A stretch of 44,327 bases of DNA from Laspinema sp. D2d (GTDB lineage Bacteria > Cyanobacteriota > Cyanobacteriia > Cyanobacteriales > Laspinemataceae): contig NZ_JAMXFC010000006.1 in assembly GCF_025370755.1 (NCBI RefSeq), forward strand, positions 208,685-253,011, read 5' to 3'. Made by a program: the position numbers and the translations under genes. Position 1 is the stretch's first letter. The number at the start of each line of letters is the position of its first letter. Under the pieces are notes generated by a model, which ran no database searches, was not told the origin of the DNA, and saw nothing but the letters and a program-made list of their open reading frames with translations. Positions 1 to 44,092 of the stretch are shown in pieces.

Positions 1-545
1 TCTTCTGAATTATCTTCTGGAGGAATCTCTTCTGAATTATCTTCTGGGGGAATTGCTTCAGAATTATCTCCGGGTGGAATTATCCCGGAGTTGTCTCCGG
101 GTGGAATCTCTTCTGAATTATCTCCGGCAGGAATTTCTTCTGAATTATCTTCTGGAGGAATCTCTTCTGAATTATCTTCTGGGGGAATTGCTTCAGAATT
201 ATCTCCGGGTGGAATTATCCCGGAGTTGTCTCCGGGTGGAATCTCTTCTGAATTATCTTCTGGAGGAATCTCTTCTGAATTATCTTCTGGGGGAATTGCT
301 TCAGAATTATCTCCGGGTGGAATTATCTCGGAGTTGTCTCCGGGTGGAATCTCTTCTGAATTATCTCCTGGAGGAATTATCCCGGAATTATCTCCTGGAG
401 GAATTTCTTCTGAATTATTTTCTGGTGGAATCTCTTCTGAATTATCTCCGGGTGGAATCTCTTCTGAATTGTCTCCGGGTGGAATCTCTTCTAAATTATC
501 TTCTGGGGGAATTTCTTCTGAATTATCTTCGGGGGGAATCTCTTC
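1..545. repeat. 27-bp tandem repeat (about 20 units) with higher-order structure
   Basis: The unit resembles ggaatctcttctgaattatc and so on, 27 bp, coding on the minus strand for E-[EAI]-I-P-P-[EG]-[DN]-N-S. A block of several units recurs starting at about 19, 154 and 262, so the offsets are 135 and 108 bp, exactly five and four units. This shows duplication of multi-unit blocks. Unit variants are GIIPPGDNS, EAIPPEDNS and EEIPPGDNS. The array runs off the left edge. Confidence 0.95.
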
Positions 546-26284: not shown

Positions 26285-26830
26285 ATGAATCTTAAAAATA
26301 TCAGCCTTTTGACAGGTACAATTTTATCCGTAACACTCAGTTGGGGAAATATATCCCCAACGATCGCAGAAACGACTTCCGAAGCCGGGATTATTCCAGA
26401 AGCGATCGCCCAAACCATGAACGAACCGATGGGTGAGCCGATGATGGGCCGCGTAACCATGATTCGGAATAATATAGTCACCTTGGAAATGGAGAATGGA
26501 GACACCACCCAAGTTACCCTTCCTGTACTCGAACAAGAAAAACTAGGGATGCGTCCAGGAGTCGAGGTCCTGCTTTACCCCGATGGGATGGTGACGGCTT
26601 ACACCACCGAGATGGAGTCTGAGGAAACCGCCTCTTCAGACACCCTCGACGAAATTCGCCGCGTGTTTGAATCAATTAATAGCCGCCAGGAAAGCGTCAC
26701 CACCATCACCCCGGAACCTCGGGAAATGGTAACCCCAACACCCACGGCTGCACCGCAACCGATGCAACCCGCCCCTCAGCGGATCCAAGTAGAAACTACC
26801 CCCCAGCAACCTGTTCGAGCGCTGTGGTAG
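26285..26830 (+). CDS. Secreted protein with C-terminal PVRALW tail (paralogue 1)
   Basis: 181 aa. Signal peptide at residues 1 to about 28 (LLTGTILSVTLSWGNISPTIA). One small beta-rich domain (about 54-106) has the pattern GRVTMIRNNIVTLEMENGD, then LGMRPGVEVLLYPDG. A Pro/Thr-rich linker follows and the protein ends QQPVRALW. The same start, domain and exact ending occur in the protein at 30096, so the two are paralogues. gaggag sits upstream of the ATG. Function is unknown. The conserved last residues suggest a sorting or interaction signal, which is inference. Two hairpins lie immediately downstream. Confidence 0.82.
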   Translation: MNLKNISLLTGTILSVTLSWGNISPTIAETTSEAGIIPEAIAQTMNEPMGEPMMGRVTMIRNNIVTLEMENGDTTQVTLPVLEQEKLGMRPGVEVLLYPDGMVTAYTTEMESEETASSDTLDEIRRVFESINSRQESVTTITPEPREMVTPTPTAAPQPMQPAPQRIQVETTPQQPVRALW

Positions 26831-29171: not shown

Positions 29172-29780
29172 TTACGGTTCTACTGTCACTGGAGTTCCCA
29201 CTTCTACCTGAGCATATAAGGACAAAATATCCTGATTTCGCATTCGGACGCAACCATGAGAAACCGCCTCTCCAATGAGTTCTTCATTGGGAGTACCATG
29301 AAACCCAATTAAATCTTTTCCGTCTGTCCAAAACCCAATCCATCTTGCCCCTAAAGGATTATCTGGCCCTGGATAAACTAACTCACCTGTCCAAGGGTGC
29401 TCCCAGATTGGATTCCGTTGCATTTGCATGACTTCATATTGGCCCGTAGGGGTTTCCCATCCTTCCTTGCCCACAGCGATCGGATAACTGGTTTGCACGC
29501 GATCGTTGCGATAAACATAAACGCGACGTTCGCTCAAACGAATGACTAAATGAACTCCCTCAGTCACCCTTTCAGGATACACTTCCTGCTCAAAAGGAAT
29601 AAATTTAGAATATTCTCCTAACGGAGGTAACTCAGGGTCTAAAACCGGCAACCATTCTAAATCAGGAATTGAGAGATTTCCCACTGATATTTCTGCCGGG
29701 ACACCCATTCCCCACGCAAGGGAGGGCATTGACAGGAATAAAACAGCGGCACTGACGGTAAGGCGCATAAACTTTAACAA
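29172..29780 (-). CDS. L,D-transpeptidase (YkuD family), exported
   Basis: About 202 aa from TTG at 29780, chosen because aaggag lies eight bases upstream; the frame extends to 29840, and ATG at 29768 is another option. An N-terminal signal peptide (MRLTVSAAVLFLSMPSLAWG) targets the periplasm. The YkuD domain has IRLSERRVYVYRNDRV, YPIAVGKEGWETPTGQYEV, and the catalytic SHGCVRMRN with the nucleophilic Cys at about residue 177 and the preceding His. It probably makes 3-3 crosslinks in peptidoglycan or anchors lipoproteins. It is transcribed opposite to the flanking genes. Confidence 0.92.
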   Translation of the reverse strand: MLKFMRLTVSAAVLFLSMPSLAWGMGVPAEISVGNLSIPDLEWLPVLDPELPPLGEYSKFIPFEQEVYPERVTEGVHLVIRLSERRVYVYRNDRVQTSYPIAVGKEGWETPTGQYEVMQMQRNPIWEHPWTGELVYPGPDNPLGARWIGFWTDGKDLIGFHGTPNEELIGEAVSHGCVRMRNQDILSLYAQVEVGTPVTVEP

Positions 29781-30095
29781 TAGAACTTCTCCTTGCACCA
29801 TTCCTTTATCTTTAATTCCTAACAAACCCTGACTACACATTTCCAGAAAAACTGATATTATTTTATTCTATAGCTTGACTTGATTCGAGTTCAAGCCTCA
29901 ATCCCTCGGATCTAAAATAACCCATCTCTATTGAGGCTAGGGGGCCAACCTCTACCTATTGGTAGATGAAAGCTCCAGCATCGGACGGGTATGATCATGC
30001 CAGGGTTCCGGTAATAGCAGCAATGGGTGTGTAGATCTGATCGCGAGGTCTCCATCAAAATCTCGTTAATTAAATCGTGTTGAAGTGAGGATGTC

Positions 30096-30689
30096 ATGCG
30101 GATGAAAAACATGAAAGTCTTAACGGGTACAATGTTGACCCTGATACTCTCGGGAGTATCGGTCTCTCCAGCATTGTCTCGGCCAGTCACTCCAATGGGG
30201 GAGGGGCAAGTTATTAGCCAAACTAACCCCAGTATGGTCCGAGGTACCATTCAAAGCATTCGTAACAATCAAGTGAGCATTCGTCTCCCCAATGGCGAAA
30301 CTCAGATCGTCGAGATTTCTGAAAATGACAGAAACCGCCTCGGGTTGCTCCCCGGAATGGAAATCGAGGTTGTGTTAGATGAGACAATGATGATCGGGAC
30401 ACAAGTTACGGTTCTCAATCCCGATAATAGCGTCACCACCACAACCACCTCAACCACCACAACTACCACCCCGACTGCACCCCGGACCATTCGGGTTGCG
30501 GGTGATGTCGTTTCTTGTGAAGACACCACCTTACAAGTTCGGCTTCCCGATGGCGGCATCCGCACTTATATGGTGAGTCGTGATGTTTGTACTCAAGCGG
30601 TTATGACTCCCGGTCGTCGGATTGAATTCGACGTTGACGATCGCAACATGGTCTCCAACATTCAGCAACCTGTACGCGCCCTTTGGTAA
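30096..30689 (+). CDS. Secreted protein with duplicated domain and PVRALW tail (paralogue 2)
   Basis: 197 aa. Signal peptide (residues 1 to about 29, MKVLTGTMLTLILSGVSVSPALS). Two copies of the small beta domain: about 47-108 (GTIQSIRNNQVSIRLPNGE, LGLLPGMEIEV) and about 131-189 (LQVRLPDGG, MTPGRRIEFDV), joined by a threonine-only linker (TTTTTSTTTTTT). The chain ends QQPVRALW, exactly as in the protein at 26285. Paralogue 1 has a single domain and a Pro-rich linker instead. Function is unknown; probably a soluble periplasmic or surface protein. A T-tailed terminator follows. Confidence 0.82.
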   Translation: MRMKNMKVLTGTMLTLILSGVSVSPALSRPVTPMGEGQVISQTNPSMVRGTIQSIRNNQVSIRLPNGETQIVEISENDRNRLGLLPGMEIEVVLDETMMIGTQVTVLNPDNSVTTTTTSTTTTTTPTAPRTIRVAGDVVSCEDTTLQVRLPDGGIRTYMVSRDVCTQAVMTPGRRIEFDVDDRNMVSNIQQPVRALW

Positions 30690-30745: not shown

Positions 30746-30782
30746 AAGTGATGTCCCGGGTACAAGGGGCATCACTTTTTAT
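30746..30782 (+). terminator. Rho-independent terminator
   Basis: aagtgatgtccc (30746-30757) pairs with ggggcatcactt (30766-30777) with one wobble, followed by a T run (cttttta). It ends the 30096 gene. Confidence 0.85.
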
Positions 30783-30860
30783 TAAAAACCTCTTCCCCAA
30801 TTACACTCCCCTTGACTCCCCACCGCCTCACTTCACTTGAGCGTGAACCCAATCTCACTT

Positions 30861-31035
30861 CTCCCCCATCTCCCCCATCCTCCCCATCTCCCCCATCCTC
30901 CCCATCTCCCCCATCCTCCCCATCTCCCCTATCCTCCCCATCTCCCCCATCCTCCCCATCTCCCCCATCCTCCCCATCTCCCCCATCCTCCCCATCCTCC
31001 CCATCCTCCCCATCTCCCCAATCCCCCCATCCCCA
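30861..31035. repeat. 18-bp C-rich minisatellite
   Basis: About nine near-perfect copies of ccccatctcccccatcct and shorter variants fill 30861-31035, in the gap between the terminator and the stop of the SGNH-like lipoprotein gene. All six frames are open but low-complexity (Ser/Pro or Gly/Asp/Glu), which makes false long frames. It lies outside any supported gene. Confidence 0.9.
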
Positions 31036-31037
31036 AA

Positions 31038-32495
31038 CTACCGCCCTCTCGGCCACGGAATATTCGGATCCACGGCCAGGGAACGAGCCACCGCAGCCGC
31101 CCCCAACTGATTCAAATGACTAGGATCCTCAAAATACTCATTCCGATTTAGTCCTCGGATCGTGGACAGATCCCGCCAGAGAAACGCTTGAGCGCTCATG
31201 CGGCGCATATACTGGCGGAACTCGACCTCGACGCTGCTGCGGGTGGCATCTAAATAATCATCAGTCAGGGGTAGATTAACAATGACTAACGGAATTTGAC
31301 GCGATCGCGCAAACGCTGCTACAGACTGTAACGCCGAACCCTGAATGCCGCCCAATTGAAAATTTGCATAATCCCTATCATAGCGACCGTCAACCCGCGA
31401 CTGTTGACGATAGTAGCTTCTAGGATTGAAGCGAGTCGCCACCGGGAGGAAGCCGTAGGCATCAATCGCTACACCTAAAGGACTCAATCGACGGACCCCT
31501 GTAGCGATCGTCGATGAATTCCTGTTTCCGGACCTAATGAAACATTGTGGAGAATCCAAACAGACCACTGTTCTACTAGGATTCTGAGCAAAGTCCGGAC
31601 CCAGGTCATCAGAAGGAGAGTCCTTCCCCACCCTAGAATCAGAAAAAGCGTGAAAACTTATGGGTTGAAACTGGTATTCTTCCGGGGAGGAAGAGGCGAT
31701 CGCCTCCTGTGGGGCAATCCCCAAACTCAACTGCGGACGCACCCCAGATGCTAACCGCTGATATCCCGGAGACTGGACAATTTCGGTATAGGTGCGATCG
31801 ACCCGTCCACTATTAAACGCCCGGACCCCATCCGCCCAGAGAATCATTCGCGGCAAATGCTCAGGCCCCAACAGTTCCTGTAACTGAAACCGCACCACCT
31901 GGGCCGTGGCCCCGTGAATCCCAAAATTAAACACCCTCAGTCCTGATAACCCCCTAGCCTCCAATCCTTGGCGGAGGATACGCGGATCAACCCCCTGGAC
32001 CGCCCGAGAACTCCCGACAATCAAAATATCAGGTCGTCCCATCGCCTCAATGTACGATAGATAGAGTCCCAATTGCTCATCAAGGACCTCACTATTAAAC
32101 GTGGGATAGTTCAGGCGAGAACTCACCGTCGCTTGTTGCTGGCTGTACATCAGATAGCGCATATATTCCGCGACCTTTTTCTGAGCAAACGCCCTGCGGG
32201 GATTCGTCGGGGGCACCGACTGCATCCAGTAGATTGCTTGCAGCCACTGTTTTGAAACTTCATCCCACTGCGCAGGAGAACGGGCCGTTTGTGCAAGGTT
32301 CGCGGCATTTGTTGCGTATTTAATCGCCTCCGCAAACGGCTCAACAGCCCCTTGGGCGACTGGGACTTGAGCTACTGCTGAGGGTGAAGCGAAAGAGCCG
32401 GTTGAACGGGGCGTAACCCTTTGGGAACAGCCCCCGATTAGGGCCAGAAGCGAGATAGCCGGAATAAACTTTAGAAAAAACTGAAATCTAGGCAT
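31038..32495 (-). CDS. Lipoprotein with W-x6-W module and SGNH-like (DUF1574-type) domain
   Basis: 485 aa. The signal peptide ends in a lipobox (LLALIGGC, C23), so the protein is anchored to the membrane facing out. Residues 53-121 are one copy of the shared helical module (FAEAIKYATNAANLAQTARS, QWDEVSKQW, WMQSVPP, AQKKVAEY). From about 125 an SGNH-hydrolase-like fold follows: DILIVGSSRAVQG (block I-type serine), VFNFGIHGATAQVV, and a late DPSHLNQLG that gives the Asp/His pair. Such domains act on acyl groups of surface glycans, but the substrate is unknown. It lies 135 bp downstream of the M48 protease gene on the same strand. Its 3' end meets the minisatellite. Confidence 0.85.
   Translation of the reverse strand: MPRFQFFLKFIPAISLLALIGGCSQRVTPRSTGSFASPSAVAQVPVAQGAVEPFAEAIKYATNAANLAQTARSPAQWDEVSKQWLQAIYWMQSVPPTNPRRAFAQKKVAEYMRYLMYSQQQATVSSRLNYPTFNSEVLDEQLGLYLSYIEAMGRPDILIVGSSRAVQGVDPRILRQGLEARGLSGLRVFNFGIHGATAQVVRFQLQELLGPEHLPRMILWADGVRAFNSGRVDRTYTEIVQSPGYQRLASGVRPQLSLGIAPQEAIASSSPEEYQFQPISFHAFSDSRVGKDSPSDDLGPDFAQNPSRTVVCLDSPQCFIRSGNRNSSTIATGVRRLSPLGVAIDAYGFLPVATRFNPRSYYRQQSRVDGRYDRDYANFQLGGIQGSALQSVAAFARSRQIPLVIVNLPLTDDYLDATRSSVEVEFRQYMRRMSAQAFLWRDLSTIRGLNRNEYFEDPSHLNQLGAAAVARSLAVDPNIPWPRGR
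32133..32339 (-). other. W-x6-W module copy 1 (SGNH-like lipoprotein)
   Basis: Encodes residues 53-121 of the lipoprotein. See the findings for the family comparison. Confidence 0.8.
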
Positions 32496-32630
32496 GAATT
32501 CGATATAAAAGTTCGATGCCGGATGGCTAGAAGTGCTGAGTGAGCGATCGATGAATATCTGATGAGGGTCTCATCAGATCTATGATAAACGTCCCCTTTC
32601 TCAACCGCAGGCGATCGCCCTTTGCTGCAC

Positions 32631-33596
32631 CTACTCCCCCTTAATCCGATTAATTTCCTGCTGTAACTCCTCAATTTGACGGCGCAATCGCTCCGCTTCC
32701 TGTTCTGCAGGAGACTCCGGTCTAACCTCTACGGACCCTTGCGCACCCCCTCGCGGATAATTTCCCCGCTTAATTTCCCCATACTCCGCAGAACTCGCCC
32801 AAGCTTGTAAATAGCTCACTCGTTCCACGGTAAAGGGATGGGTTAGAAAAACCCCCTGGGAAACGTTGTTATAAAGAAAAAATTTATAAACTTGATTGAG
32901 TCCATCCTCATCTAATTCTTGATAGCGCTGGGCTTGGCGGGTAAACTCCTCTAAGCTGCATTCATGAGCATAGCGGGTAGACCCCCCGGCCATTTTCATC
33001 ATGGTCTGCATCACCGGCCTAGTATCATCCATCACCAACATCGCCGCCCGATCTGCCGAGAGTTCCGCTTTTCGCAACCATTCATAAAATGCCAAAATCA
33101 AGCCGGTACTGAGGATGCGGCTAAACCCCATCGTCAAATCTGCCAGACTGAAAACCGCCATAATTGCCCAACTCGCCATCTGAATCAAGGTGGTGTGACC
33201 ACATTTGATATGTCCCAGTTCATGGGCGATAACCGAGCGAATTTCGTCCTCACTCATCAAGTCAATTAACCCTGTATTTAAGACAATGTAGGGCAGATCT
33301 TGTCCGAGGGCGTAAGCATTGACCACGGGGGCCTGAGAGACAAACAACGTGGGTTCGGGATAAATATCTAAATCCCGAATACATTCTCGAAAGATTCCAT
33401 AGAGGGTTGAATATTGCCGAGGACCCACTTGGATACTATTGCCCATCATATAGACATACTGGGGACGCTCCACGAGAAATTCTACAAACTTGCGGGCCAC
33501 CAAATCAAATCCAGGGACCCGACGTAAGGTTTGTTCGGCTTCGCGATCCAAGGGATGGCGAAAGGCTTCGCTCGAAATTCCAGTATAGGTAGGCAT
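32631..33596 (-). CDS. M48 family metalloprotease
   Basis: 321 aa from the chosen ATG at 33596. The Zn-binding motif is VIAHELGHIKCGH, with a second glutamate in the following helical stretch (AELSADRAAMLVM). A hydrophobic segment (MASWAIMAVFSLADLTMGFSR) may be a membrane helix. ALGQDLPYIVLNTGLIDLM before the motif is typical of M48 (HtpX/BepA-like) proteins. A C-terminal coiled coil (ERLRRQIEELQQEINRIKG) ends the protein. Probably a membrane-linked quality-control protease. The frame extends to 33641, but the shorter start is preferred. It precedes the lipoprotein gene by 135 bp. Confidence 0.88.
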   Translation of the reverse strand: MPTYTGISSEAFRHPLDREAEQTLRRVPGFDLVARKFVEFLVERPQYVYMMGNSIQVGPRQYSTLYGIFRECIRDLDIYPEPTLFVSQAPVVNAYALGQDLPYIVLNTGLIDLMSEDEIRSVIAHELGHIKCGHTTLIQMASWAIMAVFSLADLTMGFSRILSTGLILAFYEWLRKAELSADRAAMLVMDDTRPVMQTMMKMAGGSTRYAHECSLEEFTRQAQRYQELDEDGLNQVYKFFLYNNVSQGVFLTHPFTVERVSYLQAWASSAEYGEIKRGNYPRGGAQGSVEVRPESPAEQEAERLRRQIEELQQEINRIKGE

Positions 33597-34091
33597 CGTT
33601 TTTTTATTCCCCCAGGAAATCATAGATTGGCGGCATGACAAAAGCGATCGCCTATCAACCGTCCCCTCTGTCTTGCCTCCATCAATTTTAGATTAATCCC
33701 TTTCAGCAAAGAACTCCGGGGTGCACTCATCCATCCATTAGGCTAACAAATCCGGTTTCTGGCCCTAATTTGTGACTTTCTTGGCAGAGATTTTATCAAG
33801 AAACCCGGTTGTCTTCCCCCGATTGTCCCCTCGAATTAGGACCCGATTGGTTTTCTCAAACTTGCTCAGGACTTACAGAACATAGGGTGTAGATAATAGA
33901 AGCAGGAGAGGAAAGACCTCTATCCCATCCGATAACATCCCCACGGACGCCCGTCAGTCGCGTTGAGTAGGTCAGCCCGGTGTGGCAACAGATTCCCTGG
34001 TCCCTGATTTGGAACCTAAATTGGCGGCTTTTTGTTTTCCCCGGTCAAGGAAGGCTGACCTGCTAAAAAAACTGATACGCTATATCTCTAA
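33597..34091. other. Divergent intergenic region with two repeat copies
   Basis: 495 bp between the M48 gene (minus) and the 34092 gene (plus). Copies of the dispersed repeat occur at 33748-33764 (aaatccggtttctggcc) and 33797-33810 (caagaaacccggtt), in opposite orientation and about 45 bp apart. The rest shows no gene. A promoter for the 34092 gene probably lies in the AT-rich stretch 34010-34090. Confidence 0.5.
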
Positions 34092-35006
34092 ATGCAAACC
34101 AATACCGCTTTTATAGAGTTGACAAACAATCAATTGCTAAACCCAAGCATGGTACATCCGATGGATGATATCGCCAATCAAGCTCGCCAGGGCAGCGTAT
34201 CGGCGATTATTCAAGTCCTGAATGAAAAACTGGCTCCTTCCGGCGTCAGAACCCGCGCCGTGTTTGCTGATGGCGTGTTGCAACTGCTATGCGAGGCGGG
34301 GAGTCCCGAACTCCTGGACCAATCTACTTTGGTCGATCGCATTCGACAGATTTTAGAGTCTTTGGCACCGCGCAATATTCGTCGAGTCCATATCAACAGC
34401 CGCCTGGTGCGAGAACAGCAGTTGTTGTGGTTGGAGGAAATTAACCGGGACCCCGAAAATCAACTCCTCTGGTCCCAACTGATTACCCTCAAAAAACCCA
34501 ATATCTTCAAACAAATGGGCCAAGAATTCAGTCGTCCAAAACCCCGCACTGACCCAGCTTTCCCCAAATCCCCCTATTCCCGTCAAGTCCGAGAAGAACG
34601 CCAATTTCGCCGGGGAATCCTCAATGGTTTGGGGGTTAGCTTGTTACTGGTGACTCTGGGTTTACTAATTTATAACTGGCCCCAAATTCAGGCCGGATTG
34701 AAGTCAGCTCAGTTTTCTCTGACTTCTGGCAATTCGGGAGAGTCATCCGAGGCTGTCTCCGATCGCGATGCCTTTGCAGAAGCGGTGCGATTAGCCATCC
34801 AAGCCGATGCTGAGGGGAAAGTGGCTCAAACTTCCTCGGAATGGTTGGTGATTGCCGCCAAGTGGGAACAGGCGTCGGTGTTGATGGCTTCAGTCCCAGC
34901 GGATCATCCCCGGTACAAAATCGCCCAAAACCGTACGGAACTCTATCGCAATTACAGCGAGGATGCCCAAACTCAAGGAGCTCTTTTACGTCGAGAGAAG
35001 CTTTGA
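34092..35006 (+). CDS. Membrane protein with shared N-terminal module and W-x6-W module
   Basis: 304 aa. Residues about 25-117 are the shared N-terminal module (ANQARQGSVSAIIQVLNEKL, GVRTRAVFADGVLQLLCEAG, LLWLEEI). A basic linker (140-175) and one membrane span (about 178-195, NGLGVSLLLVTLGLLIYNW) follow. Residues 227-297 are the W-x6-W module (FAEAVRLAIQADAEGKVAQT, EWLVIAAKW, LMASVPADHP, AQNRTELY). With positive residues before the span the N-terminus should be cytoplasmic and the C-module outside. Function is unknown. It is convergent with the MscS-type gene, and no T-tailed hairpin was found between them. Confidence 0.82.
   Translation: MQTNTAFIELTNNQLLNPSMVHPMDDIANQARQGSVSAIIQVLNEKLAPSGVRTRAVFADGVLQLLCEAGSPELLDQSTLVDRIRQILESLAPRNIRRVHINSRLVREQQLLWLEEINRDPENQLLWSQLITLKKPNIFKQMGQEFSRPKPRTDPAFPKSPYSRQVREERQFRRGILNGLGVSLLLVTLGLLIYNWPQIQAGLKSAQFSLTSGNSGESSEAVSDRDAFAEAVRLAIQADAEGKVAQTSSEWLVIAAKWEQASVLMASVPADHPRYKIAQNRTELYRNYSEDAQTQGALLRREKL
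34770..34982 (+). other. W-x6-W module copy 2 (34092 protein)
   Basis: Encodes residues 227-297, C-terminal to the membrane span. Confidence 0.8.
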
Positions 35007-35153
35007 TTCATCCTGTGGACTGGGGAATTCGAGTCCAGTTTTCTAAAAACTATGTTATCACGCTGATTTAAAGAGCGGGACAGTTTTAACTGGAAAATTC
35101 CCCTTGTCTGTAGGATCTGCGGTTGGTCCAATCCGGTCTTGATTTCTAGCGGT

Positions 35154-36635
35154 TTAAATTCCAAATAGAGTATTTAACCGTTTGCGAATCCAAATCAAGG
35201 GCTTTTCTTCCCCTTCAATTTCTTCATCCACCAGTAATCCTAAACTTTTGAGGGATTGTTGTCTTTCGGATAACTTTTCAGCAATGCGATCGGCTAAATT
35301 GCGATGGGTGACTAACAAGCGTTGTAAATCATTGCGATCGATTACAAATAAAATTGTATCTTCCAACGTTCTGACACTTGCCGAACGGGGAATCCCCATC
35401 AGTAAAGAAATTTCTCCAAAAAACTCACCGGCGTGCAGACTGGCAATATATTTTTGCAGTCGTTGGGAAAACACTTCAACGGAACCGGAGAGAATAATAT
35501 AAAAAGAATCCCCTGGGTCATTTTCGCGACAAATTAAGCGATCGCCTGGAAACAATTGGCGATATCCATACTCAATTAAGTGCAGCAATTCCATATCGCT
35601 ACAGGTTTCAAAATACGGCATTCGCCGCAGCAAATCTCTCAATGTCCAATTATTCGGAGATTTGGGAATTGATGGTTCTAGCTTCGGCGGAGGGTTTTCC
35701 GAAGGGGGAAGCATTTCTTGACTCGGGACCGTGGGAACTTGATGTTTAAACAGGGTCTTGAAGGAGTCGAGATTACGAATATGTAAATCTCGCTGAGGGA
35801 AGGGAATTTCAATGCCTCGCTGACGCAATTCACACTCAATTTGAAAATTCAAGGCACTTTTAATCGGTTCACTGTTTTCTGGTTCATCAATCCAGACTAA
35901 CAATTGAAAGTCTAACGCACTGTCTCCAAAGCCTTCAAACCAGACTTTAGGCGGTGGATCCGATAGCACTTGACGTTCTTTCCGCGCTGCGGTGAGGAGT
36001 GCTTCGGTGACTGAGGCAGGATCGGTCCCGTAGGCAATGCCAATGGGAATATGGAGGCGACATTTTGAGTCTTGATAACTCCAGTTAATAATATTATTTT
36101 CGACAAATCGGATATTAGGAACAATGACAAATACTCCATCGCGACTCCGCACAATGGTGGAACGAATGGAGATTTTTTCGACCGTTCCAAACAGATCATC
36201 GACTTGGATATAGTCGCCAACTTTAATGGGTTGTTCAAATAATAAAGTAATGCCGCTGATAAAATTACTGGCGAGATTTTGTAACCCAAAACCAATCCCA
36301 ATTCCTAAAACACCGGCAACAACCGTGAGGGAACTCAAGTCAATTCCGGTACTTTCAAGGACAATGAGAAAAGAGAGGGCACTGAGAAGATACCCCATGA
36401 CAGCAGCGATCGCCTCTCGGGTCCCGATGTGAAATTTTAAGCGCCCTAATAACCGGCGCTTAATCCATTCATTCACACTCCGGGAGATAAAATAGGCGAT
36501 CGCACTGAGTAATATCAGTTGAGCAAGGCGATTCAGGGAAAACTCATTCCCGCCGACTTTAAACAAATCTTTGGTAAAAATAGCACCGAAAACCGTCAGC
36601 AGTTGTCTTGTCTGCTGGATGATCCAATTTACCAT
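35154..36635 (-). CDS. MscS mechanosensitive channel with C-terminal cyclic-nucleotide-binding domain
   Basis: 493 aa. N-terminal membrane spans at about 33-51, 75-93 and 100-130, the last being the Gly/Ala-rich pore helix (VVAGVLGIGIGFGLQNLASNFISG). The MscS beta domain (about 130-200) reads IKVGDYIQVDDLFGTVEKISIRST and NNIINWS. After a proline-rich linker a cNMP-binding domain (about 335-460) carries SFYIILSGSVEVF and the phosphate-binding cassette FFGEISLLMGIPRSASVRT, so a cAMP or cGMP ligand could gate it. The channel releases solutes on hypo-osmotic shock. MscS with a cNMP domain is known in bacteria and especially cyanobacteria, and sensing of the nucleotide here is inferred from the motif. 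Confidence 0.93.
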   Translation of the reverse strand: MVNWIIQQTRQLLTVFGAIFTKDLFKVGGNEFSLNRLAQLILLSAIAYFISRSVNEWIKRRLLGRLKFHIGTREAIAAVMGYLLSALSFLIVLESTGIDLSSLTVVAGVLGIGIGFGLQNLASNFISGITLLFEQPIKVGDYIQVDDLFGTVEKISIRSTIVRSRDGVFVIVPNIRFVENNIINWSYQDSKCRLHIPIGIAYGTDPASVTEALLTAARKERQVLSDPPPKVWFEGFGDSALDFQLLVWIDEPENSEPIKSALNFQIECELRQRGIEIPFPQRDLHIRNLDSFKTLFKHQVPTVPSQEMLPPSENPPPKLEPSIPKSPNNWTLRDLLRRMPYFETCSDMELLHLIEYGYRQLFPGDRLICRENDPGDSFYIILSGSVEVFSQRLQKYIASLHAGEFFGEISLLMGIPRSASVRTLEDTILFVIDRNDLQRLLVTHRNLADRIAEKLSERQQSLKSLGLLVDEEIEGEEKPLIWIRKRLNTLFGI

Positions 36636-36760
36636 GAAGCTAAACCGCCTCGCCGAAATTTCATGTTTGATTTAAGCTCAGTCGTCAGAGAGAATTTCTC
36701 TAGTCTTAAGGGCAGGGGCGGGGTGAACATCTCCCCAATTTGGGAACAAATTGGATCACA

Positions 36761-37843
36761 TTAAAAGGGATTTCCCATCATTCTTTGAATTAAAAACCAG
36801 ACACCCATTCCCAACCCGCCCAAATTGGCTACCAGGGATAAAAACAAGGTAAAATACCCAATCAGCGTTAGAGTAATTTCATGGCGATCATCGCTAATAA
36901 ATCGAGTTTTTTCAATAGAAATAAACTCGGAGAGTTTTCCTTCTATAAAATTTTTCCCCAGCCTTTTATTATAGAAATAGAAATTTTTTTTGATGCCTTT
37001 GGGTTGATAAATACTCAGCCCTCGTTTTCCCGCACTGAGGTGATTAATTTTATTCAAATTCACCCCAAAAGCTTTAATCGCTTTTCGGGAAAAATCCGGG
37101 CAGGAAAAACAAGCTAAACCCCGCTCAGTCAGCACCAGACAGGCTAATTGGCCTTGATATCGCACCCCAACAACGTCCAGGATTTCACTGGTGGAAGGCA
37201 TCAATTCGGCCAGAGCCTCCGCAAATTTAGGAATGGCATAGTAGTAATCCACGCTGTATTTTCCTTTTTGGGGAAACCGACCGATATCTCGGAGTAAGTC
37301 TTCATAGTCAAGGGCGGTGAGACGCGATCGCTCTTGTGCCGCCTGTTCTGAACTCTCAGGGAGTGGTGCAGAATCCTCGGTGGATTGGGGCCGATCGCCG
37401 TTCCGGGATTGAGGGGTTCTGCCCGATTTTTTTCCGCCATTGACGGAGGGGAGTGAGTTGTAGATTAAAGACTCCCGGGAGCCTCCAGTGCGCGAAATCG
37501 GAGCCTCTAAGGGCGCGATCGCCGAGAGTTCCTCGGAGAATCCAGCCTGGGGAGGGAGTTCAAACTCCTGGGACCAGGCGGGGGCCGTCTGTCCCGTCTG
37601 AAGACCTAAAACTTTCAGAGAGGCGATCGCCTGGGGAGCCAATTTCATCACCCCTTGATAAATAAACTCAGCTAAAACTTTTTGATTGGGAACTTTGGGG
37701 GCTGCAAGGGTAATCTGCAAGCACCGACCCTTAAGGGCCGCTTTCGCCGTGATCCCTTTAGGTTCTAGGGACCGATTGATTAGAGCGGCGATCGCAGTGG
37801 GGCGGCCCTGTTTAGCAAGTTCCAAAAGCTCAGTCTGTGTCAT
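36761..37843 (-). CDS. Membrane protein with shared N-terminal module
   Basis: 360 aa. Residues about 5-96 are the shared N-terminal module (LAKQGRPTAIAALINRSL, GITAKAALKGRCLQITLAAP, APAWSQEF). A Ser/Pro-rich linker (100-175) is followed by an alpha/beta region (about 195-315, VDYYYAIPKFAEALAELM, GVRYQGQLACLVLTERG) that may be PH-like but is not recognised, then C-terminal hydrophobic spans (about 324-352). It lacks the W-x6-W module that its two relatives carry. The start is an ATG at 37843. Function is unknown. It is downstream of the 38062 gene, on the same strand, with 218 bp between. Confidence 0.8.
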   Translation of the reverse strand: MTQTELLELAKQGRPTAIAALINRSLEPKGITAKAALKGRCLQITLAAPKVPNQKVLAEFIYQGVMKLAPQAIASLKVLGLQTGQTAPAWSQEFELPPQAGFSEELSAIAPLEAPISRTGGSRESLIYNSLPSVNGGKKSGRTPQSRNGDRPQSTEDSAPLPESSEQAAQERSRLTALDYEDLLRDIGRFPQKGKYSVDYYYAIPKFAEALAELMPSTSEILDVVGVRYQGQLACLVLTERGLACFSCPDFSRKAIKAFGVNLNKINHLSAGKRGLSIYQPKGIKKNFYFYNKRLGKNFIEGKLSEFISIEKTRFISDDRHEITLTLIGYFTLFLSLVANLGGLGMGVWFLIQRMMGNPF

Positions 37844-38061
37844 AGCTGGCTAGAAAGGATGATTAGGAAAAAGCGTGAATACCGATAAGCATAAGGATAA
37901 AGGATCGGGTTAGTTTTGCCGATAAAACCCTTCGCACCCATCCCGATCGCTCCAACCCCAATCCTTTTGGGTAAAGGTCTCGACGCCTCGGGTTTTCTGG
38001 GGTGTTTGTTCGGTTCAATCACCCCAACTCTTTACCTTGAGTTAATAAAACCCACTTCCTT

Positions 38062-39090
38062 TTACTCAAAAGCATTTGCAGCCCGTTGTCGAGCCAAATC
38101 AGCGTTTTGCTGATACTGTCCCACTCGGGGTTGAGCATTGGGGTAATTGGCACTGGTTTCGGGGACTTGGCTCATCAAATCGCTCGCCTCCTGCCACAGA
38201 ACTGCAATCTGATTCCATTCTGCCTGGGTTTGAGCGGTTAGAGATTGCTCTGCCGCCTGGGTTGCTCGTCTCACCGCTTCTGCAAAAGGATTGGCCGCTG
38301 GTGCAGGGGCCGGGGCCGGGGTCGGGGCCGGGGTCGGAGCTGGAGACTGGGTTGCCGGGGCTGGTGGGGGGGCTGGTGCAGGGTCCGTGGCTGGGGCCGG
38401 AGTTTCGGCGGCAGGGTCCGCAGAGTCCGAGGCTGGAGTTGGGGTTTCTTGACCTTTCATCAGAAACCAGTAGGCCGCACCCCCGCCTAGTGCGACGATT
38501 AAAAGAACCAGAGGAACGATCAGCAGGACTTTATTTTGATACCATTTTTTGCCCTGGGGTTTGACCGAGGGGATGTCTTCTTCCTCGTCTTCGTCGTATT
38601 CCTCTTCCTCGTATTCATCCGACCCCTCTAAATCATCGTTGGGCATCAGATTTTCGTCGTCTGGGAGGAGGTCCTCATCTCCGGCGAGCATATCCTCATC
38701 TCCAGCGAGCATATCCTCATCGGGGGCGAACATATCCTCATCGGTAGCAAACATATCCTCATCGGTAGCGAAGGCTTCCTCTGGAGGTTCGATGTCTATT
38801 TCTTCTTGCCACGCCGGAAGGCGATCGCCGATTTTGCGTCCGTAAATCTTCAAGGTAGGAACTGACTCAATCCCCAACTCGGTTAGACCATTCTTGATGA
38901 AAGGAACTAGGGCCGTGGGATCTGGGACTGTTGCTGATTCCAGCAACAGGAGCAAAGAACCGTCTTTGAGAACGGCTTTTGCAGTTATCCCTTGAGATTG
39001 AATCGCGTGATTGACTACAGCAGCGATCGCCTCGGGTTGGCCCTTTCTGGCGAGTTCTTTTTGGTCTATCGGTGCATTAAATAAGGGCAT
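38062..39090 (-). CDS. Membrane protein: shared N-terminal module, acidic heptads, W-x6-W module
   Basis: 342 aa. Residues about 10-101 are the shared N-terminal module (LARKGQPEAIAAVVNHAIQS, GITAKAVLKDGSLLLLLES, LPAWQEEI). Residues 107-155 are seven acidic heptads (FATDEDM, FAPDEDM, LAGDEDM and variants), then a very acidic stretch (EYEEEEYDEDEEEDI). One membrane span is at about 187-210. A Pro/Ala-rich linker (216-267, PAPTPAPTPAPAPAPA) leads to the W-x6-W module at 268-336 (FAEAVRRATQAAEQSLTAQT, EWNQIAVLW, DLMSQVPETS, AQPRVGQY). The acidic tract could bind cations or a basic partner (inference). It forms the same module order as the 34092 protein with extra spacers. Confidence 0.83.
   Translation of the reverse strand: MPLFNAPIDQKELARKGQPEAIAAVVNHAIQSQGITAKAVLKDGSLLLLLESATVPDPTALVPFIKNGLTELGIESVPTLKIYGRKIGDRLPAWQEEIDIEPPEEAFATDEDMFATDEDMFAPDEDMLAGDEDMLAGDEDLLPDDENLMPNDDLEGSDEYEEEEYDEDEEEDIPSVKPQGKKWYQNKVLLIVPLVLLIVALGGGAAYWFLMKGQETPTPASDSADPAAETPAPATDPAPAPPPAPATQSPAPTPAPTPAPAPAPAANPFAEAVRRATQAAEQSLTAQTQAEWNQIAVLWQEASDLMSQVPETSANYPNAQPRVGQYQQNADLARQRAANAFE
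38083..38289 (-). other. W-x6-W module copy 3 (38062 protein)
   Basis: Encodes residues 268-336, C-terminal to the span and the Pro/Ala linker. Confidence 0.8.
38626..38772. repeat. 21-bp coding tandem repeat (acidic heptads)
   Basis: About seven 21-bp units resembling catatcctcatcggtagcga encode the heptads FATDEDM/LAGDEDM on the minus strand in the 38062 gene. The first copies are nearly identical and the later ones have diverged. Confidence 0.85.
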
Positions 39091-39591
39091 GGGAGGAGGT
39101 AGGTAGATTCTGAAATCATCTTACTGTCGAGAATACCCACGGGAAACTTTAGCTTAGTCGGTAGATTGGATTTTACCTCAAACTTTGACTTTCTCTCGTA
39201 CCTCAGTTTACCAAGCCCCTAATTAGGGCAAGAACCGGGCTTTCTGGCCCTAGGTAGGGGCTTCTGAGTAGACCTTTTCTCCTGAAACCCCGGGTTTTCA
39301 TCCCTCTGAGGCCCTCAGTTAGTCCAGGGCAGAAAGATTGGACTGGGGTGGGTCACCCTGGCGATCGGGGGAAAAGTTGGATCTCCTCCAGTTCTGGAAT
39401 CAGGGTAGAGATAAACCCCAAACAGGCGATCGCCACGGGTGGAACCCTACAATCCGTTCCCTGAACCTCGACTTAACCCCTAGACTGCTGAGATGATTCG
39501 GCAACTGCCCCCCATCTTGTCAGGGTTCCTTGATGTTTGGGAACCCCTGGAAAAAGGAGTGGGGGAGTCTACTCAAGATATTGCCCGGGGT
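39091..39591. other. Intergenic region with dispersed-repeat copies
   Basis: 501 bp. Contains agaaccgggctttctggccc (39231-39250) flanked by aattaggg/ccctaggt-type inverted sequence and cctgaaaccccgggttttca (39281-39300), both dispersed-repeat members. Two HIP1-type sites (39361, 39427). No gene is supportable. Confidence 0.5.
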
Positions 39592-39780
39592 CTAATCTAC
39601 AACCCTTAACAATCCCTGGCGTAGGGCCTCAAATACGCGATCAATCAAAATTTGCTCTTTCGGGGTCAGGGAATCCTTAGATAACAGGGTCATCATAAAG
39701 ATTTTTTGATCGGCCCGCGTAATCCGGTGGGTGAGGAAGATCCGTTCGACAATTTTTTCAATGTTAGATTCCGGTTGCAC
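39592..39780 (-). CDS. Small conserved cyanobacterial protein
   Basis: 62 aa. A helical, charged protein with the pattern IERIFLTHRITRADQ... written here as VERIFLTHRITRADQKIFM, then LLSKDSLTPKEQILIDRVF and a C-terminal GLLRVVD. It resembles a short conserved protein common in cyanobacteria (recollection, not checked). No membrane span or signal peptide. Function is unknown. Start ATG at 39780 has no strong ribosome-binding site. Confidence 0.7.
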   Translation of the reverse strand: MQPESNIEKIVERIFLTHRITRADQKIFMMTLLSKDSLTPKEQILIDRVFEALRQGLLRVVD

Positions 39781-40301
39781 TCTATTACGGTCATCATTCG
39801 GGATGTGATGGCTAAAGTTGTTTTAAAATCTACCATTGCTGGGGGAATCGCGGCAATTTTCAGCCCCTCGCGCTCGGTTCGATAGGGTCTGAACCCCGGT
39901 ACGGGTTAGCTGTGACTGACTTTGAGAAGGTTGGCTGTGGATTTTGAGAGACGGGAGAAAACACCGGGTTTCATCCTGGGAATTGTTGGCTAATTCCAAA
40001 CAGTTTTATAGACCTCTTGCAAAAATCCGGATTGATCCCCCCAACCCCCCTTTTTAAGGGGGGCTTTAAAGAATTTTGCAAGAAGTCTTATGAAAAAACC
40101 CGGTTATCTTCAATCGTCTGTGCTGATGCTTTCGGCAATCTAAAAGCGCGATCGCTCCACCGGAAGACCCAACAGATTGAGTCATCATTTCTGCGGCGAT
40201 CGCCCCAAGCGATTACTCTATCATCTAATCAGAAATCGCTTTAGCTTACTCACCGTCATCCTGTCTGTATTCAAACTAACAATTATCTCTAGCGATCGCC
40301 A
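39781..40301. other. Intergenic region with a MITE-like element
   Basis: 521 bp. Holds two dispersed-repeat-type segments (acaccgggtttcat at 39961 and aaaaaacccggtt at 40094) and, between them, the inverted-repeat element at 40009-40090. A HIP1 site occurs near 40150. The open frame at 40017-40244 runs through the element and is not considered a gene. Confidence 0.55.
40009..40090. mobile_element. MITE-like inverted-repeat element
   Basis: tagacctcttgcaaaaatcc (40009-40028) is an imperfect inverted match to gaattttgcaagaagtctta (40071-40090), with 15-16 of 20 positions paired. The interior has ccccccaacccccc/ggggggc hairpin sequence. The element is about 82 bp with no coding capacity. Such termini are common in cyanobacterial genomes and suggest a non-autonomous IS derivative (recollection). 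Confidence 0.6.
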
Positions 40302-40958
40302 TTAATTACGCCCAGTTGATACTTCTTGAATTCGCTGATCTAGTTTGCGTCCTACTTCAGCGATCGGATGTAAGGGTCTTTGACCATCGCGATATAAGAC
40401 AAACACAAACGCCCCCATCTGGTTTTTCCGCAACACCAAAATTTCTAACCGCGCTAACAAGTTATCCAAATCCACCCGTAAGCTCACACCTGCCGCCGCA
40501 TCGCCGATATTATTGATATTATTTAAGGCTTGCGGAGGCACGTTTGTGTCTTGGAGATTTTCTGTTAACAAGGACTTCAACCTTTCCGGATCCCGCAGTA
40601 AGTCGTCAAATTCCGCCTGTTGTTGAGCCGTTTCCAGTCGGGTAGTTATCCCCATAATCAGTTGAAACTGTTCCTGGGCAACAAAAGCAAAAACATTCTC
40701 AACATCAATCTGATCTTGACTCAGTTCTTCTTTGAGGTTCGCTAACTCAGCGGGTGGCATTGCCGTAAAGCCCGGTGGCAAGTCCTCCAATCTCAAGGTC
40801 ACATCCGCCCATGTCCTAGCCTGTGCCAGGATCACACGCTCTGGTGTCCCCTTCTCCTCCACGACAGATTGCGCCAGGGCTGGAGTTGTCAGCCACACCA
40901 TTGTAGGCACCACACCAACGGCCAAACTTAGGAGTCCCGAAGCTATTTTTTCGATCAT
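40302..40958 (-). CDS. Exported protein of unknown function
   Basis: 218 aa. A signal peptide (residues about 1-30, LLSLAVGVVPTMVWLTTPALA-Q) implies periplasmic or thylakoid-lumen location. The mature part is a mixed alpha/beta domain (VTLRLEDLPPGFTAMPPAEL, FAFVAQEQFQLIMGITTRL, DAAAGVSLRVDLDNLLARLE, GAFVFVLYRDGQRP) that I recognise as a type seen in cyanobacteria but cannot name. No cysteines or catalytic motifs are visible. It is divergent from the GH57 gene with 309 bp between them. Confidence 0.75.
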   Translation of the reverse strand: MIEKIASGLLSLAVGVVPTMVWLTTPALAQSVVEEKGTPERVILAQARTWADVTLRLEDLPPGFTAMPPAELANLKEELSQDQIDVENVFAFVAQEQFQLIMGITTRLETAQQQAEFDDLLRDPERLKSLLTENLQDTNVPPQALNNINNIGDAAAGVSLRVDLDNLLARLEILVLRKNQMGAFVFVLYRDGQRPLHPIAEVGRKLDQRIQEVSTGRN

Positions 40959-41267
40959 TTATCCAAGTTCCTTGTCCCTTCCGGGGAAATGTAATGGGAT
41001 TGAATTCTACCAGGGAACCCCAGTGATTCCGTCATTCTTGATGCAAGAGACGAGAGAGAAACGGGTAATGGTGCCTCCGATGAGTAACAATCTTCCCCGG
41101 ATTCGACCTAAGTGGGGTTATCTGACCCCGACTTAGAGCACAATTTTCTGTCATCTGCCTCAATCAATTGGTTGATAGCTTCCTCTTTCATTCTAAAATC
41201 TTACACATACAGAAAACTTGCCTGAAGCTGCCGTCAGTTTTATCTCTTACACTAGAAACAATACACT
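40959..41267. other. Divergent intergenic region upstream of the GH57 gene
   Basis: 309 bp holding promoters of the 40302 and GH57 genes. No certain promoter elements or hairpins were identified, and no gene is supportable. Confidence 0.45.
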
Positions 41268-42857
41268 ATGGCTATTGGTTACGTTGCGCTCGTCCTCCAC
41301 GCCCATCTTCCTTTCGTCCGCCATCCCGAAAGTGATTATGTTTTAGAAGAAGAATGGCTCTATGAAGCCATTACAGAAACCTACATCCCCTTACTGCGAG
41401 TATTTGAAGGTCTAAAGCAGGATGGGATCGATTTCAAAATTACCATGAGTATGACGCCCCCTTTGGTGTCGATGCTCCGGGACCCCCTACTCCAAGACCG
41501 TTACGAGGAACACCTCGCTAAACTCGAAGAACTTGCTGAACTGGAAATTGAGCATAACAAGCATAATGGTCACATTCGCTATCTAGCGGAACATTATGCC
41601 CATGAGTTTAACGACACACGCCAAATCTGGGAACGCTACGATCGCGACTTGGTGTCTGCCTTTAAACAATTCCAAGACTCCAACAATCTCGAAATCATCA
41701 CCTGTGGGGCCACTCATGGCTACCTACCCTTGATGAAAATGTATCCGCAAGCCGTCTGGGCACAAATCCAGGTCGCCTGCGAACATTATGAACAAAATTT
41801 CGGTCGTCCCCCCAAAGGCATCTGGCTTCCCGAATGTGCCTACTATGAAGGCTTGGAGCGAATGTTGGCGGATGCCGGTCTGCGCTATTTCCTCACGGAC
41901 GGTCATGGCATTCTCTACGCTCGTCCCCGTCCCCGCTTTGGCACCTATGCCCCCATTTTTACCGAGTCTGGGGTGGCGGTCTTCGGTCGCGATCACGAAT
42001 CCTCTCAACAGGTTTGGTCTTCGGAGGTCGGCTATCCCGGTGACCCGGAATATCGCGAATTTTACAAGGATTTGGGCTGGGAAGCTGAATACGAATATAT
42101 CAAGCCGTACATCATGCCCAATGGTCAGCGCAAGAATGTCGGGATTAAATATCACAAAATCACGGGTCGCGGCCTCGGTTTAGGGGATAAAGCCCTTTAT
42201 GACCCCTATTGGGCACGAGAAAAGTCTGCTGAAAATGCAGGCAATTTCATGTTTAACCGTGCCCGTCAAGTGGAACATCTCCACGGCATCATGCAACGCC
42301 CTCCGATTATTGTCTCCCCATACGATGCGGAACTGTTCGGTCACTGGTGGTATGAAGGCCCTTGGTTCATTGATTACCTCTTCCGCAAGTCTTGGTATGA
42401 CCAAGGGACTTACGAAATGACCCACCTGGCGGATTACTTACGCAACAATCCCACTCAGCAGGTTTGTCGTCCTTCTCAGTCTAGCTGGGGTTATAAAGGA
42501 TTCCATGAGTATTGGCTGAATGAAACGAATACTTGGGTTTACCCCCATTTACATAAGGCCGCAGAACGGATGATCGAGTTGAGTCATCGGGACCCGGCGG
42601 ATGAGCTGGAGTGGCGTGCGCTCAACCAAGCGGCCCGCGAATTGCTCCTGGCACAGTCTTCGGATTGGGCATTTATCATGCGCACGGGAACGATGGTTCC
42701 TTATGCCGTCCGACGGACCCGATCGCATTTGATGCGTCTCCACAAACTTTATGAGGATATCAATACCGGCAAAATTGATTCCGGTTGGTTATCCAAGGTT
42801 GAGGCGATTGATAATATTTTCCCAGAGATTAATTATCGGGTGTACCGTCCCTTGTAA
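41268..42857 (+). CDS. Glycoside hydrolase family 57 1,4-alpha-glucan branching enzyme
   Basis: 529 aa. GH57 enzymes of this type introduce alpha-1,6 branches in glycogen-like glucans. The N-terminus VALVLHAHLPFVRHPE is the first GH57 region. The nucleophile fits E189 (GIWLPECAYYEG) and the acid/base D353 (SPYDAELFGHWWYEGP); these positions agree with the known Thermus enzyme (Glu184, Asp353). THGYLPLM (about 149-156) is a further conserved region. The C-terminal DUF1957-type helical domain carries SSWGYKGFHEYWLNETNTW. Normal full length. It is single and divergent from the exported protein, with a repeat-derived terminator downstream. Confidence 0.94.
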   Translation: MAIGYVALVLHAHLPFVRHPESDYVLEEEWLYEAITETYIPLLRVFEGLKQDGIDFKITMSMTPPLVSMLRDPLLQDRYEEHLAKLEELAELEIEHNKHNGHIRYLAEHYAHEFNDTRQIWERYDRDLVSAFKQFQDSNNLEIITCGATHGYLPLMKMYPQAVWAQIQVACEHYEQNFGRPPKGIWLPECAYYEGLERMLADAGLRYFLTDGHGILYARPRPRFGTYAPIFTESGVAVFGRDHESSQQVWSSEVGYPGDPEYREFYKDLGWEAEYEYIKPYIMPNGQRKNVGIKYHKITGRGLGLGDKALYDPYWAREKSAENAGNFMFNRARQVEHLHGIMQRPPIIVSPYDAELFGHWWYEGPWFIDYLFRKSWYDQGTYEMTHLADYLRNNPTQQVCRPSQSSWGYKGFHEYWLNETNTWVYPHLHKAAERMIELSHRDPADELEWRALNQAARELLLAQSSDWAFIMRTGTMVPYAVRRTRSHLMRLHKLYEDINTGKIDSGWLSKVEAIDNIFPEINYRVYRPL

Positions 42858-42903
42858 TCTGTTTTGATCGCAATGGAATGGAAATTGATTTTCGCTTACA
42901 TAG

Positions 42904-42971
42904 AAACCGGGTTTCTGGGTATTAAGGATAGATGAACGGCTCTATTTCCTCCTAAGACGCCCGGTTTTTTT
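42904..42971 (+). terminator. Repeat-derived terminator after the GH57 gene
   Basis: aaaccggg (42904-42911) pairs with cccggttt (42960-42967) around a 48-base loop, followed by tttt. The left arm is also a copy of the dispersed repeat (agaaaccgggtttct, 42902-42916). Confidence 0.6.
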
Positions 42972-43000
42972 AGAGGGTTTGACCGGAGTTTACTCGGTCA

Positions 43001-44092
43001 ATGGCAAAAAATTGTGCTAAAAAAGATCGAGTTGCCTGCGGCGATCGCCTCGAATCAATGCCTGTTTCTAATTCCCTGTTTAACCATTTTCCCTGTCCCC
43101 GTTGTGGCACTTCGGTCCGATTGAAACCTCGGACCCACTACTTTAAGTGTCCTACTTGTGATTGGCAAGATTCTCTGTTTGAACCCGCTGAACTGGTTCG
43201 GTCCCAATCCTTTATGGCAACAAAGGTGATGACCTCTGGGCTTAAGAACCCTTCCAGTCGTCAACTTTCTGAGCGATTTTCACCCCAAGCGAGTCAAAAA
43301 GCATTACTCCCGACTTGGCTTTGTCAGTCTTCCGATCGCTCTATTCAACCTCCTGCGCTGATCGCACCTGAGCGCTCCAAAATGTCTTTATATCTGACTA
43401 CGGTGGCGATCGCTACAGTCGCCCTAGTCACTCTTCATCACTTTGAGGGCTTTATTTCTCCTTTTGATCCTTCGGTGATGTTTTTGCCCCCCTCCCCAGG
43501 AGATGAAGTTGGAGCCATTCCACCAGAAGACGCCTTTCGCCAAGGGGTCAATGCAGCCATGAGAGCAGCGACCCTAACTCAATCCGCCGGAACTCAGGCG
43601 CAATGGCAAACGGTGGAATCCTTATGGTCCGAGGCGATCGCTCTGATGGAAGCTGTCCCCTCCGACAGTCGCGATCGCCCCCTGGCTGAACAAAAGGCCG
43701 TTGAGTATCAAACTAAGTGGTCTTACGCTCAACAGCAGATCACCCAGATCGCTTACGCACCCCCGCCACCGCCTCCACTTTTCCCGATGCCAGTCACCAA
43801 CTCCCCCTTACTGCCGCCACCCCCTCCAGACCAAGCCCCTGCTCGCTCTCCCCAACCTCACGAAATATTCCGCTACGCCGTAAATCAGGCGATGAGTGCC
43901 GCCAGTTTGACCCAATGGGCTGAAACCCAGGAAGACTGGATGAAGGTTTCTCAGGAATGGCACCAGGCGATCGGTCTGATGAAATCCGTCCCTTCCGATA
44001 GTCCAGACTATTCCACCGCCCAGCAAAAAGCCCAAGAATATCAGACCAATCTCCTCTACGCTCAACAACGAGTCAACCAACTCGCCCCCTAG
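43001..44092 (+). CDS. Zinc-ribbon membrane protein with two W-x6-W modules
   Basis: 363 aa. A C4 zinc ribbon is seen at residues 31-55 (PCPRCGTS and CPTCDWQ; C32, C35, C50, C53), then a low-complexity segment and one membrane span (about 128-147, LYLTTVAIATVALVTLHHF). The part after the span holds two W-x6-W modules: 178-247 (QWQTVESLW, LMEAVPSDS, AEQKAVEY) and 289-358 (DWMKVSQEW, LMKSVPSDS, AQQKAQEY), joined by a Pro-rich linker (PPPPPPLFP, PPPPPDQAP). The ribbon should be cytoplasmic and the modules outside. Function is unknown. A later ATG at 43058 is an alternative start. The gene is the last complete gene in the window. Confidence 0.82.
   Translation: MAKNCAKKDRVACGDRLESMPVSNSLFNHFPCPRCGTSVRLKPRTHYFKCPTCDWQDSLFEPAELVRSQSFMATKVMTSGLKNPSSRQLSERFSPQASQKALLPTWLCQSSDRSIQPPALIAPERSKMSLYLTTVAIATVALVTLHHFEGFISPFDPSVMFLPPSPGDEVGAIPPEDAFRQGVNAAMRAATLTQSAGTQAQWQTVESLWSEAIALMEAVPSDSRDRPLAEQKAVEYQTKWSYAQQQITQIAYAPPPPPPLFPMPVTNSPLLPPPPPDQAPARSPQPHEIFRYAVNQAMSAASLTQWAETQEDWMKVSQEWHQAIGLMKSVPSDSPDYSTAQQKAQEYQTNLLYAQQRVNQLAP
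43532..43741 (+). other. W-x6-W module copy 4 (43001 protein, first)
   Basis: Encodes residues 178-247. Confidence 0.8.
43865..44074 (+). other. W-x6-W module copy 5 (43001 protein, second)
   Basis: Encodes residues 289-358; closest to copy 4, consistent with tandem duplication within the gene. Confidence 0.8.

Follow-up and report, generated by a model that had tools for sequence, protein, structure and literature searches.

Five copies of one module in four neighbouring proteins

The window analysed here, a stretch of 44,327 nt from Laspinema sp. D2d, encodes five homologous copies of a module of about 72 residues in four proteins, three of which we name by their first coordinate. Copy 1 (32127-32345, minus strand; profile E = 4.2e-33) lies in an SGNH/DUF1574-like lipoprotein (31038-32495, minus strand; hereafter the SGNH protein), whose match to PF07611 is weak and under the cut-off (E = 0.024). 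Copy 2 (34764-34982, plus strand; E = 5.3e-33) is C-terminal in the 34092 protein (34092-35006, plus strand), behind an N-terminal domain and a hydrophobic span. Copy 3 (38074-38295, minus strand; E = 2.2e-31) is likewise C-terminal in the 38062 protein (38062-39090, minus strand), where it follows an N-terminal domain, an acidic stretch, a hydrophobic span and a Pro/Ala linker. Copies 4 (43523-43747, plus strand; E = 1.7e-33) and 5 (43856-44080, plus strand; E = 2.0e-36), which are 53% identical, share the 43001 protein (43001-44092, plus strand). This protein begins with a zinc-ribbon-like N-terminus, for which the zinc-ribbon matches in Pfam are weak and none is above cut-off, and continues with a hydrophobic span; copy 5 stands behind a Pro-rich linker. 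Re-translation of the four proteins places all five copies at the residue positions given in an earlier note on this DNA.

The five copies share ancestry, as that note had proposed, because proteins held out of the profile score far above shuffled modules. With leave-one-out profiles, the SGNH, 34092 and 38062 proteins reach 59.5-64.5 bits, against 16.2-21.0 bits for the top scorer among 20,000 shuffled modules; this scoring applies to these three proteins only, as copies 4 and 5 are parts of the same protein, 43001, and could not be separated in it. The alignment of the five copies has 12 invariant columns out of 77. In the three-part motif described earlier, parts one and two stand as given, and the third has to be corrected, since all five copies read A-[QE]-x5-Y and not A-[QE]-x7-Y.

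The description of the four proteins as otherwise unrelated goes too far. The N-terminal domains of 34092 and 38062 are 30% identical over 83 residues (E = 2e-8), and the same domain recurs in a paralogue encoded between them (36761-37843, minus strand), in which the profile search finds no module. This second unnamed domain, of about 85 residues, occupies 34164-34433 (plus strand), 37559-37837 (minus strand) and 38803-39075 (minus strand); it has eight matches in the same genome at E <= 0.01 and, by eye, is paired with the module also in proteins of other families and orders. No Pfam family is above cut-off in 34092, 36761 or 38062, and the NCBIfam matches of 38062, down to E = 1e-5 (GltJ), lie far under their cut-offs and cover the span and the Pro-rich linker. 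At the 3' end of the SGNH gene, a low-complexity stretch with Pro-rich or Asp/Gly-rich frames extends over 30772-31056.

Distribution and partner domains

The module family is widespread in cyanobacteria, far beyond the window. The genome of Laspinema sp. D2d itself (6.6 Mb, 83 contigs) gives 19 matches with the five-copy profile and 21 with a 34-row profile, the weakest of which are partial. Among its relatives, 36 of 39 genomes (its own included) match the five-copy profile, and two of the three misses (G020 and G031) match weakly with the 34-row profile. In a sample of the phylum, the 34-row profile finds the module in 89 of 292 genomes (again including its own), all from the window's own order or class; since 20 candidates were scored per genome, copy numbers in this sample are lower bounds. 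Of the 203 genomes without a match, 20 are listed, among them eight genomes of 1.6-2.6 Mb from family f37. These searches covered cyanobacterial genomes, and a restriction of the module to cyanobacteria is not shown thereby; collections of plasmids and phages contain no module match by tblastn. For the whole 43001 protein, a contig search returns three close relatives, in Laspinema olomoucense, Phormidium pseudopriestleyi and Oscillatoria sp. HE19RPO.

The module is also linked to many different partner domains. From 140 loci we obtained 138 frames with a module match and 89 distinct proteins. To count what the module is fused to, as the earlier note had suggested, we compared these proteins by blastp outside the module, which gives 21 groups, 11 of them with one protein each; the SGNH protein clusters with 10 other module proteins. 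A scan for partner families at E <= 0.001 in 88 proteins (one fragment was excluded) identifies, among the best 25 of 98 families, DUF1574 in eight proteins, a gag-type aspartyl protease in five, OmpA in four, PPIC isomerase in three, beta-lactamase2 in two, and PGA_cap (CapA) and WD40 in one each. A protein carries one to five copies, and many carry a single one. The five-copy protein, from the same genome as the window (L020:4803-6194, minus strand), has a lipobox-like N-terminus followed by tandem modules of about 74 residues each, and the divergent repeats of a kinase-like protein (L026) give weak, partial matches to the module profile (E = 1.2e-4 to 7.4e-4).

Predicted fold and conserved residues

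The earlier note recognised no named family in the module, and the searches agree: none in Pfam or NCBIfam is above cut-off (best NCBIfam E = 0.0023), and the best match in PHROGs, a library without cut-offs, has E = 0.0068, so that none of the three contains a convincing match. Among the titles found by literature searches, none names the module. PF24465 (Tri-helical) shows recurrent weak matches, in 7 of 34 members with a best E of 0.006, and none above cut-off in 19 genomes; these carry little weight because one reversed consensus matches as well (E = 0.029, against 0.0054 for another consensus read forward), and this identity was dropped. Relatedness to the PsbQ-like extrinsic protein of photosystem II was also dropped, the matches to 4yuu not being significant (E = 0.55 and 0.36), and T-box matches cover only 20 residues.

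An AlphaFold model of copy 5, computed together with 10 other copies, predicts three helices (residues 2-22, 26-44 and 53-76) with a mean pLDDT of 95.3 and a pTM of 0.84. The best single-sequence model of copy 2 (pLDDT 87.7) has the same three helices. The expectation of a helical fold of a protein-binding type is retained, with a three-helix bundle predicted in place of the helix-turn-helix hairpin first suggested. A Foldseek search of the PDB with the copy 5 model returns 342 matches at E <= 10; among the best 50 we count 21 MIT domains, 14 BAG domains and five TPR domains of AIP/XAP2.

The MIT domain (PF04212; found in Vps4, spartin, MITD1 and NRBF2) has the length of the module (about 75 residues) and the three-helix bundle predicted for it; yeast Vps4 MIT (9bl8) superimposes on the copy 5 model with TM-scores of 0.79/0.76 and an rmsd of 2.0, and its sequence shares with that of the module two aromatic residues at a distance of seven positions and a K-x2-E-Y motif. 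The two differ in that no significant sequence match connects them (the MIT profile matches 2 of 34 module members, with a best E of 0.027 that does not reach the cut-off), that the module is bacterial and likely extracytoplasmic, and that no AAA-ATPase appears among its partners in the best 25 of 98 families. The BAG domain, a cytosolic Hsp70 co-chaperone, is a three-helix bundle too, with an identity to the module of 1-11% in the matches listed for copy 5 and 8-16% in those for copy 2. A passage in PMC5074805 describes TPR units and MIT hairpins as mutually similar. As modelled, the module appears TPR/MIT-like in fold and would be a member of neither family.

Over 118 aligned copies (profile numbering, unweighted for relatedness), the strongest columns include W26 (95%), W33 (99%), A10, A13, A36, A53 and Y60, with V29, I37, M40 and V43 on the same spacing. 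The tryptophans and the Ala/Ile/Met columns would thus be expected to form a hydrophobic core in which the tryptophans are buried. Among the polar columns that are conserved, Q54, K56, Q61, N63, Q68 and Q70 lie in helix 3, Q18 in helix 1, and D1, T22, E25, P44 and S47 at helix ends or loops. The stripe along helix 3 formed by Q54/Q61/Q68 and K56/N63/Q70 is likely to be the ligand face.

Cellular location

All four window proteins carry a hydrophobic segment ahead of their first module, and the SGNH protein has a lipobox-like LIGGC, so that the earlier placing of every copy behind a lipobox or membrane span agrees with hydropathy. Of the 87 proteins whose start codon lies in the locus, 83 have such a segment or a lipobox ahead of the first module, and in the remaining four the segment is just below threshold or a signal peptide is likely. 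Cysteine is absent from the modules (0 in 9,638 residues of 136 copies) and occurs 241 times in the 27,418 residues outside them. Taken together, these features make an extracytoplasmic module likely, as first supposed. They do not discriminate between the periplasm and the thylakoid lumen.

Proposed role of the module

Based on the above data, we propose, with a confidence somewhat better than even, that the module represents an undescribed cyanobacterial domain family that acts as an interchangeable docking adaptor. It would be a compact, Cys-free three-helix bundle of TPR/MIT-like fold situated outside the cytoplasmic membrane. It occurs, in one to five copies per protein, in a varied set of envelope proteins: SGNH hydrolase-like lipoproteins, OmpA-type wall anchors, aspartyl proteases, PPIC isomerases, enzymes resembling beta-lactamase or CapA, and membrane proteins that have other N-terminal domains. 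Most probably, all these copies would dock onto the same partner, a protein or peptide of the periplasm or thylakoid lumen, with the two tryptophans and the Ala/Ile/Met positions holding the core and the polar stripe of helix 3 probably contacting the ligand. MIT domains bind their ligands in grooves beside helix 3. What they recognise are MIM motifs in proteins of the ESCRT-III type; for the module, a cytosolic partner such as Vipp1 is disfavoured by its likely extracytoplasmic location. We infer this role from the place, fold, promiscuity and conservation of the module.

Several observations count against this proposal. On the side of the fold, Foldseek finds no PDB match at E <= 0.001, every one of the best 50 having E >= 0.08; the top-ranked match, the MIT domain of spartin (4u7i), superimposes poorly (TM 0.50/0.44), a designed protein scores 0.81/0.66, and the copy 2 model ranks BAG domains first and MIT domains next (TM up to 0.79). 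The other four of the five runs for copy 2 were poor (pLDDT 54.7-71.4), and the assignment of core and surface follows column patterns instead of coordinates. At the sequence level, yeast Vps4 MIT scores 1.5 and -0.9 bits against two module profiles, values that 65 and 532 of 2000 shuffles equal or exceed, and for an idealised TPR the corresponding number is 252-512 of 2000. As a test of location, hydropathy is crude and supportive only, because 14 of the 23 other window genes also pass it over their whole length, and the Fisher P of 7e-5 compares unlike things. The partner census consists of the best-scoring copies and many near relatives, and its proportions are not genome-wide.

The strongest rival is a more ordinary form of the same idea, with which it overlaps: the module could be a three-helix slice of a TPR-superfamily solenoid, that is, a divergent TPR repeat with a TPR-like function. 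We regard this as possible and clearly less probable. Tandem arrays are common to both, and TPR_19 (PF14559) matches the five-copy protein at E = 2.3e-4 (21.9 bits, cut-off 25). The kinase-like protein passes PF25058 (42.5 bits, cut-off 27) with the same divergent repeats whose best match to the module profile is cited above, and one module consensus matches PF25058 itself at E = 1.4e-4 (22.3 bits, under that cut-off), with no match for the reversed consensus. However, the unit comprises about 74 residues and three helices instead of 34 and two, many module proteins contain it once, no TPR model is above cut-off on the module, and the shuffles that equal the idealised TPR tell against this reading as well.

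We do not favour, and think unlikely, a peptidoglycan- or glycan-binding domain that would anchor envelope enzymes to the cell wall, although the earlier note had named peptidoglycan as a possible ligand. The likely location outside the membrane and the fusions to OmpA, beta-lactamase-like, DUF1574/DltD-like and CapA-like domains would suit such an anchor, but OmpA proteins already own a wall-binding domain, the conserved aromatics follow the spacing of a hydrophobic core, the nearest folds are binders of proteins, and WD40, PPIase and kinase-like fusions exist too. Similarly improbable is a ligand-free structural spacer or oligomerisation domain: the Pro-rich linker between the copies of 43001, and the end of the last copy, which in 50 of 89 proteins lies no more than 25 residues from the C-terminus, are consistent with it, yet polar positions are conserved alongside those of the core. 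Slightly less probable still is a bolder version, a secreted MIT homologue, in which a bacterial extracytoplasmic branch of the MIT/TPR hairpins, with up to about 20 copies per genome, would form an envelope docking code whose one shared receptor organises wall, surface and thylakoid-lumen enzymes.

Origin of the cluster and its neighbourhood

The copies found together in the window seem to be old. A tree of 92 copies has all 11 from SGNH proteins on one side of a branch (support 72/84), ten of them at 99/73, and these grouped copies come from different genera and families. A clade of nine 34092-type copies (100/99) draws on several families and orders and adjoins the 38062 copy and its relative (100/88). 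Both copies of 43001 belong to one group of 13 rows (94/88) inside which a copy from another order (L112) also falls, so that even their duplication is unsure. The tree has few columns, 40 of its 88 inner branches are open and its bootstrap is not settled; its labels follow strict patterns that leave several 38062- and 34092-type copies as "other", which makes label counts unreliable, and the clades were read from the drawn tree.

A recent local duplication inside the gene cluster is thus a very improbable source of all five copies: they do lie within 12 kb, and the identity and grouping of the 43001 pair would fit, but in the tree the SGNH copy and the 34092 copy each fall in with orthologues of their own from other genera, families and orders, and only the 43001 pair could be a local duplication. 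This does not support the spread by duplication first proposed and favours old paralogues. Gene order is consistent with this, with most of the genes named from frame length and position: SGNH, 34092, 38062 and 43001 follow one another on a single contig in five of the seven genomes from the same genus, the listed cluster genes being spread over several contigs in the other two, and the SGNH-34092 pair, about 2.6 kb apart, is also found in one other genus of the family. An older assembly seems to describe the cluster better than a recent spread.

Elsewhere in the window, two short proteins (26285-26830 and 30096-30689, both plus strand), apparently paralogues, have similar N-termini and the identical last residues QPVRALW; they flank a gene at 29172-29840 that is L,D-transpeptidase-like by eye. 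A large protein of surface type at 3-4037 (minus strand), which has long repeats resembling EEIPPGDNSE, extends past the window start.

Implications

The finding first reported for this window is real, its breadth was understated, and the accounts of unrelated hosts and of duplication were overstated. What emerges seems to be a domain family that is new and widespread in cyanobacteria and whose fold is of a known kind. The MIT/TPR-hairpin folds would gain an example that is both bacterial and secreted. Should the module be a shared adaptor, many different and mostly uncharacterised envelope proteins of cyanobacteria would be tied to one partner or scaffold, and the module profile provides a handle on such proteins.

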